64,000 nt of DNA from Kaistia adipata DSM 17808 (GTDB lineage Bacteria > Pseudomonadota > Alphaproteobacteria > Rhizobiales > Kaistiaceae), in contig NZ_AUHO01000006.1 in NCBI RefSeq assembly GCF_000423225.1, positions 744,001 to 808,000 on the forward strand, read 5' to 3'. Positions 5,181 to 25,314 of the stretch are shown here, one piece after another. The notes beneath the pieces are model-generated. The model was not told the origin of the DNA, made no database searches, and saw only the letters and a program-made list of their open reading frames with translations. The translations under genes were made by a program, and so were the position numbers. Numbering within the stretch: position 1 is the stretch's first letter; every line of letters begins with the position of its first letter.

Positions 5181-5858
5181 TCAGTCGGCGATGGTGAGCC
5201 CCATCTGCCAGAAATCGGCCTCCAGCCGCGTGGCCTGGCGGAAGATTTCGAGCAGGCGCGGATAGCGGGCCTCGGTCAGCGACAATGCCGCGAGACGATC
5301 GATCTGTTCAAGGCTCGCGCGGGCGACCGATTGAAAGCCCTCGCCTTCATATTCGCGGATCCAGGCGGTGTAGGGATTCTCGCCATCGAGCCCCGTGCCG
5401 GAGGCGGCCAGCGCCGTGCCGATCTCGGCATAGCCGACGACACAGGGCGACAGCGCAACCACGAGATCGAGCATGTCGCCGCGCAGCCCCGCCTCCTGGA
5501 CGAAGCGCGTATAGGCCACAGTGGCGCGCGCTTCCTTCGTCTTTTCAACGGCTTCGCGCGAAAGGCCCCACTCGGCGCAGAGCTTCAGATGCAGATTGGT
5601 CTCGTTCAGGATGGAGTGCATCCCTTCCGAGGCCTTGCGCATCTCTTGCGGGTTCGGCGCCTTGTAAACGCCGATCGCATAGGCGCGGGCAAACTCGATC
5701 AGGAACAGATAGTCCTGCACCAGATAGTGCTGAAAGCTCGCCTTCGGCAGCGTGCCGTCGCCGAGGCCGAGGACGAAGGGATGGCGGACATAGGCCTGCC
5801 AATCGGCGGCGGCATCGGACTTCAGACGCTCGAAGAGGCTCGACAAACCAATCTCCAT
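5181..5858 (-). CDS. tenA: TenA family aminopyrimidine aminohydrolase / thiaminase II
   Basis: A 225-residue all-helical protein of the TenA family, which hydrolyses aminopyrimidine breakdown products of thiamin so that the pyrimidine can be salvaged. It has the typical opening (WQAYVRHPFVLGLGDGTL), the FQHYLVQDYLFLIEFARAYA helix, and the catalytic cysteine at residue 139 in the motif ALSPCVVGYAEIG. The cytoplasmic enzyme needs no partner. It follows sufA by 87 bp on the same strand and precedes the TfoX gene by 8 bp. No TPP riboswitch is visible in front of it, so control by thiamin is not supported here. Confidence 0.88.
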   Translation of the reverse strand: MEIGLSSLFERLKSDAAADWQAYVRHPFVLGLGDGTLPKASFQHYLVQDYLFLIEFARAYAIGVYKAPNPQEMRKASEGMHSILNETNLHLKLCAEWGLSREAVEKTKEARATVAYTRFVQEAGLRGDMLDLVVALSPCVVGYAEIGTALAASGTGLDGENPYTAWIREYEGEGFQSVARASLEQIDRLAALSLTEARYPRLLEIFRQATRLEADFWQMGLTIAD

Positions 5859-21384: not shown

Positions 21385-22500
21385 TCAGGCCACCGGCGCC
21401 GCCGGCTCGGCCAGGATGCCACCCGGCATCGGGTACGGCACCCCCGTCGTCTCCGGCAGGCTCAGCGGCAATCCGGCGACGCTGCGCGCCGCGAGATAGG
21501 CGAAGGCCTGCGCCTCGAGGAAATCGCCGGACCAGCCGAGCGCGTCGGCGGTCCGCACGCGCGCGCCGCTGGCCTCGGCGAGAAGCTTGAGGATGGCCGG
21601 GTTATGCGCGCCGCCGCCGCAGACGATGATCTGCCCGGCGCCGCCGGCGAGCGACACGGCGCGGGCAATCGTCTCGGCCGTGAAGGCGGCGAGCGTCGCC
21701 GCGGCGTCGGCGGTCGAAAGCCGCGCCACAGGCGCCCGCGAAAACGCGTCGCGGTCGAGCGATTTCGGCGGCGGCAGGTCGAACCAGGGATCGTCCATCA
21801 GCTCGGCCAGCGATTGCAGCTGCACCGTGCCGGCCGACGACAGCACGCCGCCGGCATCCATGGACGCGCCGGTGCGCTCACGCACCAGATCGTCGATCAG
21901 CGCATTGCCGGGGCCGGTGTCGAAGGCGACGATCGAGTCGTCGGCGCCGATACGGGTGACGTTGCCGACGCCGCCGATATTCACCACCGCGACATCGCCC
22001 GAAAGCCTGGCGGCGCGCACCAGCGCGGCGTGGAAGACCGGTACCAGCGGCGCCCCCTGCCCGCCCGCCGCCACGTCGGCGGCGCGGAAATCATAGACGA
22101 CCGGCAGGCCGAGCCGGCGCGACAGCGCGGCGCCGTCGCCGATCTGGACCGTCAGCCGCCGGTCCGGCGCGTGAAACACGGTCTGGCCGTGGAAGCCGAC
22201 GAGGGTGACGCGGGGCGCGTCGACGTCGTCGCGCGCAAGCAGCGCCTCGACCGCCTCGGCATGCGCCTCGGTGACGATGCGCTCGGCCTCGGCCAGCACG
22301 CCGGGGCGCGCGTCACGCCGGTCCAGCCGCGTGGCGGCCGCAAGCGCCGCGCGCAGAACGGCGCGCTCGTCCGGCGAATAGGGCCGGAAATGGGTGGGGC
22401 CGAACGCCTCGACCTCCTCGCCGTCCGTTGCGATCAGGGCCGCGTCGACGCCGTCCATGGATGTACCGCTCATGAGGCCGACAACGACGGTTCTGCGCAT
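21385..22500 (-). CDS. anmK: Anhydro-N-acetylmuramic acid kinase
   Basis: A 371-residue kinase that phosphorylates 1,6-anhydro-MurNAc released during cell-wall recycling, producing MurNAc-6-phosphate. The N-terminal signature VVVGLMSGTSMDGVDAALI (residues 5-23) and the ATP/sugar motifs VVNIGGVGNVT and FDTGPGNALIDDL are diagnostic of AnmK. Start ATG 22500 has GGGGGG upstream. It diverges from the aromatic leader and aroG; no MurQ partner is present in the window. Cytoplasmic. Confidence 0.93.
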   Translation of the reverse strand: MRRTVVVGLMSGTSMDGVDAALIATDGEEVEAFGPTHFRPYSPDERAVLRAALAAATRLDRRDARPGVLAEAERIVTEAHAEAVEALLARDDVDAPRVTLVGFHGQTVFHAPDRRLTVQIGDGAALSRRLGLPVVYDFRAADVAAGGQGAPLVPVFHAALVRAARLSGDVAVVNIGGVGNVTRIGADDSIVAFDTGPGNALIDDLVRERTGASMDAGGVLSSAGTVQLQSLAELMDDPWFDLPPPKSLDRDAFSRAPVARLSTADAAATLAAFTAETIARAVSLAGGAGQIIVCGGGAHNPAILKLLAEASGARVRTADALGWSGDFLEAQAFAYLAARSVAGLPLSLPETTGVPYPMPGGILAEPAAPVA

Positions 22501-22609
22501 GGGTTCCCCCCGGAATGGTTCCAGAATCCGGGATACCCCCGGAAAGGACAGAGGCAAAGAGCAGATCGGCAACAGTCGGATCCTTTCGCACAAACATGCG
22601 GCCGGCCAC

Positions 22610-22638
22610 GTGACAAATCGAATTGGCTGATCTATAGG
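22610..22638 (+). promoter_or_regulatory. Promoter of the aroG leader
   Basis: -35 GTGACA (22610-22615), a 17-bp spacer, -10 TATAGG (22633-22638). The expected transcription start is about 22645, so the leader AUG at 22646 would be at or next to the 5' end of the RNA (leaderless), as reported for rhizobial trpL. Confidence 0.6.
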
Positions 22639-22645
22639 GGCTGTC

Positions 22646-22726
22646 ATGACTTTCGCCGCCACCACCTATGCTTGGTACTTTAGCTATCCGCTCGCCATGG
22701 CGGAGGTAGGGGTGCGCGCGGTCTAA
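22646..22726 (+). CDS. Aromatic leader peptide (26 aa) of DAHP synthase attenuator
   Basis: A 26-codon frame from ATG 22646 to TAA 22726. It begins MTFAATTYAWYFSY and so contains Phe, Tyr and Trp codons at positions 3, 8, 10, 11, 12 and 14: half of residues 3-14 are aromatic. It sits directly before a terminator hairpin and DAHP synthase, the first enzyme of aromatic amino-acid synthesis. By analogy with trp and phe attenuation, ribosomes stall at these codons when charged aromatic tRNAs are scarce. AGGGG lies five bases upstream, but promoter spacing suggests leaderless translation. The peptide is too short for similarity evidence; context and codon content carry the call. Confidence 0.8.
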   Translation: MTFAATTYAWYFSYPLAMAEVGVRAV

Positions 22727-22773
22727 AAACCGCAGAATGTCCCGAAGCCGCCAGACACCTGGCGGCTTTTTTT
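22656..22773 (+). promoter_or_regulatory. Transcription attenuator: four pairing segments and terminator
   Basis: Segment 1 CCGCCA (22656-22661) can pair with segment 2 TGGCGG (22698-22703); segment 2 can instead pair with segment 3 CCGCCA (22748-22753); segment 3 pairs with segment 4 TGGCGG (22760-22765) as the terminator stem AAGCCGCCAG-ACAC-CTGGCGGCTT with seven T (22767-22773). A ribosome stalled at the aromatic codons (about 22667-22687) masks segment 1 and frees segment 2 to break the terminator; a ribosome reaching the stop at 22726 covers segment 2 and the terminator forms. Confidence 0.8.
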
Positions 22774-22813
22774 ATGCCGCCGCCGGGTGCTTCCAATCCC
22801 AAGGAGCCACACC

Positions 22814-23881
22814 GTGCTGATGACCGACGACCTCCGTATTCGCGACCTGAAAGAGCTGAGCACGCCCGAGCAGGTGATGCGGGAGTTCCCGCGCACCGAG
22901 ACGGCGTCCGAGACCGTGACCGCCGCGCGCCGCGCCGTGCACAACATCCTGAAGGGCGAGGACGACCGCCTGGTCGTCGTGATCGGCCCCTGCTCGATCC
23001 ATGACCCGGTCGCCGCCATGGACTACGCCAAGCGCCTGGCGGAGATCCGGCCCTACCTCGCGGACCGGCTCGAGATCATCATGCGCGTCTACTTCGAGAA
23101 GCCGCGCACCACGGTCGGCTGGAAGGGCCTGATCAACGATCCCGACCTCGACGGCAGCTTCGAGATCGACAAGGGCCTGCGCATCGCCCGCAACCTGCTG
23201 GTCGACATCAACGACCTCGGCCTGGCCGCCGGCTCCGAATTCCTCGACATGACGACGCCGCAGTACTTCGCCGACCTGGTCAGCTGGGGCGCGATCGGCG
23301 CGCGCACGACCGAGAGCCAGGTGCATCGCGAACTCGCCTCCGGCCTCTCCTGCGCGGTCGGCTTCAAGAACGGCACCGACGGCAACGTCAAGATCGCGCT
23401 CGACGCGGTGCTGTCCGCCTCGCAGCCGCATCATTTCCTGGCCGTCACCAAGACCGGCCGCTCGGCGATCGCCACCACGGCGGGCAACGAGGACTGCCAC
23501 ATCATCCTGCGCGGCGGCAAGACGACGAACTATGACGCGGCCAGCGTCGACGACGCCGCCAAGGCCTCGGAGAAGGCCGGCATCACGCCGCGCATCATGA
23601 TCGACGCCAGCCACGCCAACTCGTCGAAGAAGCCGGAGAACCAGCCGCTCGTCGTCGAGGACATCGCCCGCCAGCTCGAGCATGGCGACAACCGCATCAT
23701 GGGCGTGATGGTGGAGAGCAACCTCGTCGCCGGCCGGCAGGACCTGGTCGAAGGTCAGCCCCTCGTCTACGGCCAGAGCATCACCGATGGCTGCATCGAC
23801 TGGGACACCACCGTCGACGTGCTGGAGCGCCTCGCCGCCGCCGTCGAAACCCGCCGCACGGCCAACCGCCGCGCCGCCTGA
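22814..23881 (+). CDS. aroG: 3-deoxy-7-phosphoheptulonate (DAHP) synthase, AroF/G/H type
   Basis: A 355-residue type I DAHP synthase: condenses phosphoenolpyruvate and erythrose-4-phosphate, the first step of the shikimate pathway. It closely follows the E. coli AroG pattern: TDDLRIRDLKEL, metal-ligand Cys60 in VVIGPCSIHDP, EFLDMTTPQYFADLVSWGAIGARTTESQ split across the active site, KNGTDGNVKIA, and IMIDASHANSSKK. The preferred start is GTG 22814, seven bases after AAGGAG; ATG 22820 is an alternative. The region corresponding to the E. coli feedback site is conserved, so allosteric inhibition is likely in addition to attenuation by the leader. Confidence 0.95.
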   Translation: MLMTDDLRIRDLKELSTPEQVMREFPRTETASETVTAARRAVHNILKGEDDRLVVVIGPCSIHDPVAAMDYAKRLAEIRPYLADRLEIIMRVYFEKPRTTVGWKGLINDPDLDGSFEIDKGLRIARNLLVDINDLGLAAGSEFLDMTTPQYFADLVSWGAIGARTTESQVHRELASGLSCAVGFKNGTDGNVKIALDAVLSASQPHHFLAVTKTGRSAIATTAGNEDCHIILRGGKTTNYDAASVDDAAKASEKAGITPRIMIDASHANSSKKPENQPLVVEDIARQLEHGDNRIMGVMVESNLVAGRQDLVEGQPLVYGQSITDGCIDWDTTVDVLERLAAAVETRRTANRRAA

Positions 23882-23888
23882 GCCCGCG

Positions 23889-23923
23889 CTCGCTTCGCCG
23901 TTTCCGCGGAGACGGCGAAGCGT
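23889..23923 (+). terminator. Hairpin after aroG, possible terminator
   Basis: CGCTTCGCCG ... CGGCGAAGCG, a 10-bp stem starting about 10 bp after the stop codon. Only a weak T-rich tail (TTCCC) follows, so termination may be partial. Confidence 0.5.
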
Positions 23924-23970
23924 TCCCGATCCCGACAACAACCCGCTTCGCGCGAAAACGCGCGAGCATC

Positions 23971-24002
23971 GGGAAATTTCGCCGCCAACGGTGAAATTTC
24001 CC
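23971..24002. promoter_or_regulatory. Long inverted repeat in the tyrS leader
   Basis: GGGAAATTTCGCC-GCCAAC-GGTGAAATTTCCC: a 13-bp inverted repeat with one G/T wobble and a 6-base loop, 58 bp before the tyrS start. A smaller hairpin CGCGCG-AAAA-CGCGCG (23949-23964) precedes it. No T-run follows. It may be an operator or an RNA control element. Confidence 0.6.
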
Positions 24003-24060
24003 GCCCCGGCTGCTAGAAAGCGGCCCAACTCCTGAAACAAAGTCCAAAGGTCCGGCCGTC

Positions 24061-25314
24061 ATGAGCGCCTTCAAGTCCGAGTTGATGCAGATCCTGACCG
24101 AGCGTGGCTTCGTCCACCAATGCTCGGATAGCGAGGGGCTCGACAGCCACTTCGCGGCGGGACCCGTCACCGGCTATATCGGCTTCGACGCCACGGCCTC
24201 CAGCCTGCATGTCGGCCATCTCGTCTCGATCATGATGCTGCACTGGATGCAGAAGACCGGCCATCGCCCCGTCGCGCTGATGGGCGGCGGCACGACGCGC
24301 ATCGGCGACCCCTCGTTCAAGGACGAGGCGCGCAAGCTCCTGACCGACGAGATCATCGCCGAGAACCTCGCCGGCATCCGCGGCACGTTCGAGAAATACT
24401 TGGACTTCGACCGCGCCGAGAAGCCGGCGATCATGGCCAACAACGCCGACTGGCTGAACGGCCTGCACTACATCGACTTCCTGCGCGACGTCGGCCGCCA
24501 TTTCTCGGTCAACCGCATGCTGTCCTTCGACTCGGTCAAGCTGCGCCTCGACCGCGAGCAGTCGCTGTCCTTCCTCGAATTCAACTACATGATCCTGCAG
24601 GCCTACGACTTCGTGGAGCTCAACCAGCGCCACGGCGTCACCCTGCAGATGGGCGGCTCCGACCAGTGGGGCAACATCGTCAACGGCATCGAGCTCGGCC
24701 ACCGCATGCTCGACAAGCAATTCTACGCGCTGACGACGCCGCTGCTGACGACTTCCTCCGGCGCCAAGATGGGCAAGACGGCGAGCGGCGCGGTCTGGCT
24801 CAACGCCGACCTCCTGAGCCCCTACGAGTTCTGGCAGTTCTGGCGCAACACCGAGGATGGCGACGTCGAGCGCTTCCTGAAGCTGTTCACCGTGCTGCCG
24901 CTCGACGAGGTCCGCCGCATCGCCGCGCTCGCCGGCTCGGAGATCAACGAGGCCAAGAAGATCCTCGCCACCGAGGTGACGGCGCTGGCGCATGGCCGCG
25001 CCCAGGCCGAGCGGGCGGCCGAGACGGCGCGCCGCACCTTCGAGGAAGGCGCGCTGGCCGAGAATCTGCCGACGATCGAGGTCGGCGCCTCCGACTTCGC
25101 CGCCGGTCTCGGCGTGCTGTCGCTGTTCGTCCAGGCCGGCCTCGTCGCCTCCAACGGCGAGGCGCGCCGCCAGATCAAGGGCGGCGGCCTGCGCGTCAAC
25201 GACCAGGCCATCACCGACGAGAAGGTGCTGGTCGGCCCCGACGCGCTGACGGCGGAGGGCGTGGTCAAGCTCTCGCTCGGCCGCAAGAAGCACATCCTGG
25301 TGCGCCCGGTCTGA
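24061..25314 (+). CDS. tyrS: Tyrosyl-tRNA synthetase
   Basis: A 417-residue class I aminoacyl-tRNA synthetase that charges tRNA-Tyr. The HIGH-type motif is HVGHLVS at residues 50-56, the KMSKS-type motif is KMGKT at ~236, and the tyrosine-binding core includes [16 protein letters not shown]. The C-terminal ~60 residues form an S4 RNA-binding domain ([25 protein letters not shown]). It lies 179 bp after aroG, separated by two hairpins, and ends in a strong terminator. Start ATG at 24061. Confidence 0.97.

Follow-up and report, generated by a model that had tools for sequence, protein, structure and literature searches.

A putatively leaderless, tri-aromatic leader as a probable transcription attenuator of the DAHP synthase gene aroG in Kaistia and related Proteobacteria

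Introduction

In Enterobacterales, pheA and pheST are preceded by the leaders PheL and PheM. Accounts of how the first step of aromatic biosynthesis is controlled have mostly dealt with TyrR, TrpR and feedback inhibition. With PheL and PheM the leader described here shares a short aromatic-rich ORF, a terminator and, by prediction, a ribosome-mediated logic. The trpL leader of Sinorhizobium and other rhizobia is an alphaproteobacterial attenuator with a leaderless ORF starting at its AUG (cited sections of PMC7298713 and PMC10117765), a layout that the predicted aroG leader resembles. For a DAHP synthase gene itself, attenuation was proposed in the hypothesis put forward for aroF-tyrA of E. 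coli (Camakaris 1980, as cited in passages of PMC8632094 and PMC2659441). In the relevant passages of PMC8632094, uORFC-13-1 before aroF of Acholeplasma is described as a predicted leader ORF that contains Phe codon(s) and is followed by a terminator and a DAHP synthase gene, and a figure legend in PMC6429828 names two uORF candidates that contain Phe and Tyr and lie at shikimate genes.

According to the cited part of PMC5343134, many gammaproteobacterial groups have retained TrpR and TyrR, which other classes lack. In Ralstonia, deletion of either aroG1 or aroG2 increases expression of the fusion to its counterpart about 10-20 fold, and Phe reduces fusion expression two- to three-fold in the deletion mutants and little in the wild type; the corresponding parts of that study mention no attenuator (PMC6379268). 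No proteobacterial aroG leader attenuator is recognised in the portions of the open literature covered (including PMC2965389, PMC5082802, PMC7566282, PMC3766115 and PMC1173090), an earlier mention being possible.

Here a stretch of 64,000 nucleotides from Kaistia adipata DSM 17808 (NZ_AUHO01000006.1, positions 744,001 to 808,000; hereafter the window) was analysed, for which an earlier note had proposed that a DAHP synthase gene is preceded by a leaderless attenuator responsive to aromatic amino acids. Comparison of related loci supports this proposal, and in our assessment aroG is very probably controlled by a ribosome-mediated transcription attenuator.

Results

Architecture of the locus

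The leader region sits between the divergent genes anmK and aroG. Its elements, in window coordinates, are as follows.

22610-22615, plus strand: -35-like box GTGACA, from sequence, 17 nt upstream of the -10-like box
22633-22638, plus strand: -10-like box TATAGG, from sequence, 7 nt upstream of the leader AUG
22646-22726, plus strand: leader ORF MTFAATTYAWYFSYPLAMAEVGVRAV, 26 sense codons, stop codon TAA at 22724-22726, from comparison and codon-level constraint
22652-22654, plus strand: Phe3 codon, upstream of the main sensing codons
22657-22667, plus strand: segment 1 as predicted for the window by the minimum free energy fold, partner 22704-22714, not conserved elsewhere
22667-22687, plus strand: sensing codons Tyr8, Trp10, Tyr11, Phe12 and Tyr14, from translation, forming the conserved aromatic core
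22698-22712, plus strand: segment 2, TGGCGG at 22698-22703 and GGGG at 22709-22712, predicted to pair with segment 3 when the upstream RNA is covered by a ribosome
22740-22753, plus strand: segment 3, TCCC at 22740-22743 and CCGCCA at 22748-22753, common to the antiterminator and (second part) the terminator
22744-22773, plus strand: intrinsic terminator with stem-loop 22744-22769 and T-run 22767-22773, from terminator prediction and covariation
22760-22765, plus strand: segment 4, TGGCGG, inside the terminator stem-loop
22801-22806, plus strand: AAGGAG, likely Shine-Dalgarno sequence of aroG
22814-23881, plus strand: aroG, type I DAHP synthase (Pfam DAHP_synth_1, 8.5e-93; NCBIfam aroFGH, 1.6e-161)

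Re-reading of the letters bore out the anatomy given in the earlier note, namely the 26-codon frame from 22646 with aromatic residues at positions 3, 8, 10, 11, 12 and 14, the joint presence of Phe, Tyr and Trp codons, and the positions of CCGCCA (22656-22661 and 22748-22753) and TGGCGG (22698-22703 and 22760-22765). The strong terminator with seven T is also found by terminator prediction, and the downstream gene, claimed to encode a DAHP synthase, matches both profiles. Judged by the spacing from AAGGAG, aroG starts with GTG at 22814, the alternative being ATG at 22820. Its product is 92 percent identical to AroG of Kaistia terrae, the nearest relative with a species name, in a protein comparison.

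The 128-nt leader (22646-22773), folding of which had been suggested beforehand, has a predicted energy of -56 kcal/mol (z -4.33) and none of 200 shuffles was equally stable. Both strands of the 64-kb window were scanned for short ORFs that hold five or more aromatics in 10 codons and are followed by a hairpin and a T-run. The aroG leader was the sole match, with none in 20 block-shuffled windows; without the terminator condition, 2 aromatic short ORFs occur in the window and 18 across the 20 shuffled ones.

Conservation of the leader with aroG

The locus sample comprises 98 loci from Alpha-, Beta- and Gammaproteobacteria, of which 94 are distinct after removal of the duplicates L001, L002, L014 and L026. 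As one criterion of an attenuator requires, a short leader ORF with many codons for the end products is present together with a terminator before aroG in 93 of the 94, and the single miss (L052) has only 184 nt of upstream sequence. These 93 leaders contain 4-8 aromatics in 10 codons, with the terminator stem 22-64 nt past the start of the stop codon. An intrinsic terminator between leader and gene, a second criterion, was detected as a hairpin plus T-run by energy in 97 of the 98 loci. The leader is found in Bradyrhizobium, Devosia, Bordetella and Achromobacter, and also in Xanthomonas and Dyella. Conservation across relatives, which the earlier note had named as a check, thus extends to the codons for aromatic residues, to the position of the promoter and to segments 2, 3 and 4. 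A plain terminator that insulates aroG next to a chance ORF would account for the strong terminator, but given the recurrence of the aromatic leader in these loci and the empty shuffled windows, its probability is next to nil.

In a wider sample of 397 genomes from the phylum, 220 encode AroG at E 1e-60 or better. Ranked by AroG similarity, the leader is present in 28 of the 29 top loci and in 13 of the 14 next in rank, and in 3 of 26 sampled places of lower similarity (at most 64 percent identity; the six highest-ranked and 20 hand-picked). A fourth match among these lower places, L160, was judged spurious. In the true misses L119 and L139, aroG lies close behind another gene. The leader also occurs in the genome group f47, whose AroG is 60-63 percent identical.

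Neighbouring genes change while the leader is kept beside aroG. Within flanks of at most 2.5 kb for the named loci, anmK and tyrS were seen beside aroG in no genus but that of the window; its 13 distinct loci all have anmK (minus strand), aroG and tyrS as neighbours, as in the window at 21385-25314. Among six close Kaistia, 90 percent of ORF positions and 89 percent of the stretch from stop codon to terminator are invariant, compared with 49, 62 and 57 percent in three flanks.

On the AroG tree only 3 changes between Alpha, Beta and Gamma labels, assigned from record titles, are needed, as opposed to 29.8 in shuffles. Since the tree sorts the three classes, the leader looks inherited with the gene, transfer still being possible. 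One locus, L043, groups among Alcaligenaceae and is labelled Alpha in the tree, while it was counted with Beta in the codon and promoter counts. The record titled Mycobacterium sp. KBS0706 (L017) is probably alphaproteobacterial or contaminated, because its AroG and leader group with Inquilinus (support 100/99). As a separate observation, locus L062 carries a ZMP-ZTP riboswitch at 5261-5342 on the minus strand (63.2 bits).

Codon-level constraint in the leader peptide

Among the sampled loci the leader peptides are 21-31 residues long, often with Phe, Tyr and Trp together. All three aromatics are present in 56 of the 59 leaders from Alpha, in all 8 from Gamma and in 7 of the 26 from Beta. Trp is absent from the other 19 Beta leaders (e.g. 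L022, L025, L033 and L035), whereas Phe and Tyr always occur, which suggests lineage-specific sensing.

In 30 distinct alphaproteobacterial Trp-Tyr-Phe cores, Tyr is encoded by TAC in 16 and by TAT in 14, with codon positions 1 and 2 fixed, and Phe by TTT in 29. Ahead of the core Trp, Phe/Tyr swaps occur, as do other residues. This pattern bears on the idea of a translation-independent RNA sensor, either a riboswitch or a protein-binding leader, that contains an ORF by chance. Such a sensor would fit the strong fold and the nearly invariant segments 2 and 3. However, Tyr codons that vary at position 3 only, swaps that retain an aromatic side chain, the variable segment 1 and the lack of an Rfam family match all speak for a translated element, and we regard such a sensor as highly improbable. 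No Rfam family reached its gathering score in the window or, among 20 related loci, at the leader; against RF01859 (Phe_leader) the window reached 22 bits (E 0.17), below the gathering score of 55 bits.

Outside the aromatic core the peptide differs freely between lineages. This freedom, like the constancy with which the leader stays with aroG among changing neighbours, argues against a main product that acts in trans, be it the 128-nt RNA or the peptide after the manner of rnTrpL/peTrpL, with cis control of aroG as a secondary effect. Even though the predicted leaderless layout resembles trpL of Sinorhizobium (PMC7298713, PMC10117765, sections cited above), we consider a primarily trans-acting role very unlikely.

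Promoter position and the probable leaderless start

A gap of 5-9 nt separates the best -10-like hexamer from the start codon of the leader in 72 of 92 loci, with 20.7 expected from shuffles (L041 was too short and was omitted). The promoter spacing that had led the earlier note to place the transcription start at the leader AUG is thus conserved in position, and for the window the start is predicted at about 22645-22646. In alphaproteobacterial loci a -35 element of the [TCG]GAC type lies 17 nt from the -10 element in 55 of 58 cases and 16 nt in one more, ties being broken towards a -10 gap of 7. A general sigma-70 scan of the window found no promoter by its criteria, and therefore the promoter case rests on comparison.

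A Shine-Dalgarno match of at least 5 nt precedes the leader in 0 of 92 loci and aroG in 62 of 92, a comparison which is not like for like, as a 55-nt stretch was searched for the gene and 15 nt for the leader. From sequence comparison, the aroG leader is probably leaderless.

Oxalobacteraceae present a different arrangement. In 10 of 12 loci (L056, L057, L058, L064, L068, L072, L073, L076, L078 and L080) the -10-like box, TATAGT, is located 24-27 nt upstream of the leader start, so these leaders probably possess a short 5' UTR. In the Duganella locus L053 the -10-like box is 6 nt from the leader start, and the two arrangements provide a natural comparison of leaderless and leadered forms.

Terminator and antiterminator

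With a ribosome placed on codons 10-14 and the RNA synthesised up to segment 3, the predicted fold of the window pairs 22698-22703 with 22748-22753 and 22709-22712 with 22740-22743, at -24.2 kcal/mol (-23.5 at codon 14). In the untranslated leader, 22657-22667 is predicted to pair with 22704-22714. Among the CCGCCA/TGGCGG segments listed earlier, 22698-22703 is thus paired with 22748-22753 in the stalled fold, and 22656-22661 is not paired with 22698-22703 in the untranslated one.

An antiterminator freed by stalling that excludes the terminator, the third criterion of an attenuator, is found by prediction only, with an antiterminator pairing above 0.5 in 91 of 93 loci in the simulated stalled state, compared with 39 in the ribosome-free state. 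Pairing in the stalled state is stronger than the mean of the shuffles in 91 of 93 loci and stronger than in the ribosome-free state in 93 of 93, the latter being partly built in; with a shuffled segment 2 region the mean pairing is above 0.5 in 74 of 93 loci. Addition of segment 4 to the simulated RNA shifts the preference to the terminator, even with the ribosome stalled (median 0.99 over loci, the window likewise). The switch must therefore be kinetic and set by the order of synthesis.

Conservation of the helices was evaluated on alignment A1, for which 16 of 93 rows (12 Oxalobacteraceae, L043, L045, L046 and L071) were set aside and the remaining 77 thinned to 50 sequences; the covariation, 2:3-core and 1:2-helix results do not cover the rows set aside. 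The terminator covariation score is reached by 0 of 500 shuffles. The core of the helix between segments 2 and 3 is 92.5 percent paired, as against 19-68 percent when slid. It is conserved without covariation on these 50 sequences, because it is nearly invariant. With the peptide held fixed, codon choice strengthens the 2:3 pairing at a median z of -1.6, with 36 of 93 loci at p of 0.05 or below, the loci being related and the codon-choice and pairing tests hence not independent. The window itself has no excess of 2:3 pairing over synonymous recodings (p 0.53).

A four-segment version of the switch, in which a 1:2 helix enforces termination when the leader is untranslated or fully translated, is a sub-variant of the attenuator and no exclusive rival. 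Such a helix is predicted in the window fold, at least 6 expected 1:2 pairs are present in 68 of 93 free leaders, and codon choice favours the 1:2 pairing with a median z of -1.24 (35 of 93 loci at p of 0.05 or below). Across the 50 sequences, however, the helix of the window is paired in 58.9 percent of cells versus 58.2 percent in shuffles, so that conservation of segment 1 did not hold up, and the window has no 1:2 excess over its recodings (p 0.68). We accordingly treat the four-segment version as possible but somewhat doubtful. As a general feature, a hairpin spanning the stop codon of the leader was considered and rejected (median z -0.25; 21 of 93 loci below -1).

Related leaders found by model search

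A covariance model built from 50 aroG leaders was searched in 299 genomes of the phylum and matched at E 0.001 or better in 145 of them, many matches covering the terminator part only. The 34 best matches (E 1e-11 or better), compared by eye, all lie directly upstream of an AroG from the wider sample, and further matches stand beside aroG in f47. In the family of the window, the 17 genomes with this AroG are exactly those with a full-length model match (E 1.5e-21 or better); 10 of the 17 family leaders had trained the model and 7 had not.

Fifteen other matches comprise 10 aromatic leaders before other genes and 5 places without such a leader. Among the former, some precede pheS, those at pheA are rich in Phe, and the one at trpE is a Trp leader; Pfam confirmed PheS at L173, PheA at L177 and L179 and TrpE at L182, and the remaining genes were read by eye. 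Recovery of classical attenuators by the aroG model supports the assignment of the aroG leader to this class.

Other DAHP synthase and tryptophan genes of the genome

A type II DAHP synthase gene (G000:C6:64828-66141) coexists with aroG in the genome. The type II enzyme occurs in 26 of 28 genomes of the family and this AroG (E 1e-60 or better) in 17 of 28; the regulated aroG is thus a second DAHP synthase here. No comparable leader was seen ahead of the type II gene: the one frame listed in its upstream region has four aromatics spread along it; judged by eye, this is the end of the preceding gene, and it was rejected as a leader. Nor was a Trp-rich leader seen in the approximately 870 nt before the one TrpE-type match of the genome (L171, G000:C2:597800-599200), where the sole ORF with at least 2 Trp lies at the gene itself.

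Discussion

Proposed mechanism

Taken together, the comparison of loci lends good support to reading this element as a tri-aromatic attenuator of aroG that is probably leaderless, and translation of the leader probably decides whether aroG is switched on. RNA polymerase would start at or next to the leader AUG, and a ribosome would follow along the leaderless ORF. A shortage of charged Tyr-, Trp- or Phe-tRNA is expected to stall the ribosome on codons 8-14, which would leave segment 2 free, so that 22698-22712 could pair with the emerging 22740-22753. With this antiterminator formed, the polymerase would read through into aroG. If all three tRNAs are charged, the ribosome would reach the stop codon, which is located inside the antiterminator; segment 3 would then be available to pair with segment 4, and a terminated RNA of about 128 nt may be released. 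The expression of aroG would in this way respond to amino acids.

More speculatively, and unlikely as a whole, the leader may have been an ancient gate already present in the ancestor of the Alpha/Beta/Gamma AroG clade, an OR-type alarm for three tRNAs that was retuned through its codons (with Trp dropped in most Beta), and whose 128-nt RNA and 26-residue peptide would act in trans.

The aroG leader would represent an RNA-based answer of Alpha- and Betaproteobacteria to first-step control. Its codons predict which amino acids should control aroG in each lineage.

Comparison with known systems

The pheA and pheST leaders differ from the aroG leaders in the genes they precede, in being dominated by Phe and in their length, with 14-15 residues in the examples examined. 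The predicted uORFC-13-1, compared by its description, has been reported from Acholeplasma and environmental sequences only, has a ribosome-binding site and comprises 24 representatives (PMC8632094, passages cited above).

To rhizobial trpL the aroG leader is related also through the model match at the trpL-like leader before trpE (L182). The rhizobial leader contains Trp only and precedes trpE(G), whereas the aroG leader combines three amino acids in front of aroG. Trans action of the terminated RNA and of the peptide has been shown for rhizobial trpL, in the sections cited. As a broadly conserved and probably leaderless candidate attenuator, the aroG leader lends itself to comparison with rhizobial trpL. 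To the known ribosome-mediated amino-acid attenuators the aroG element would add an unusually broad member, predicted to gate the entry into the shikimate pathway.
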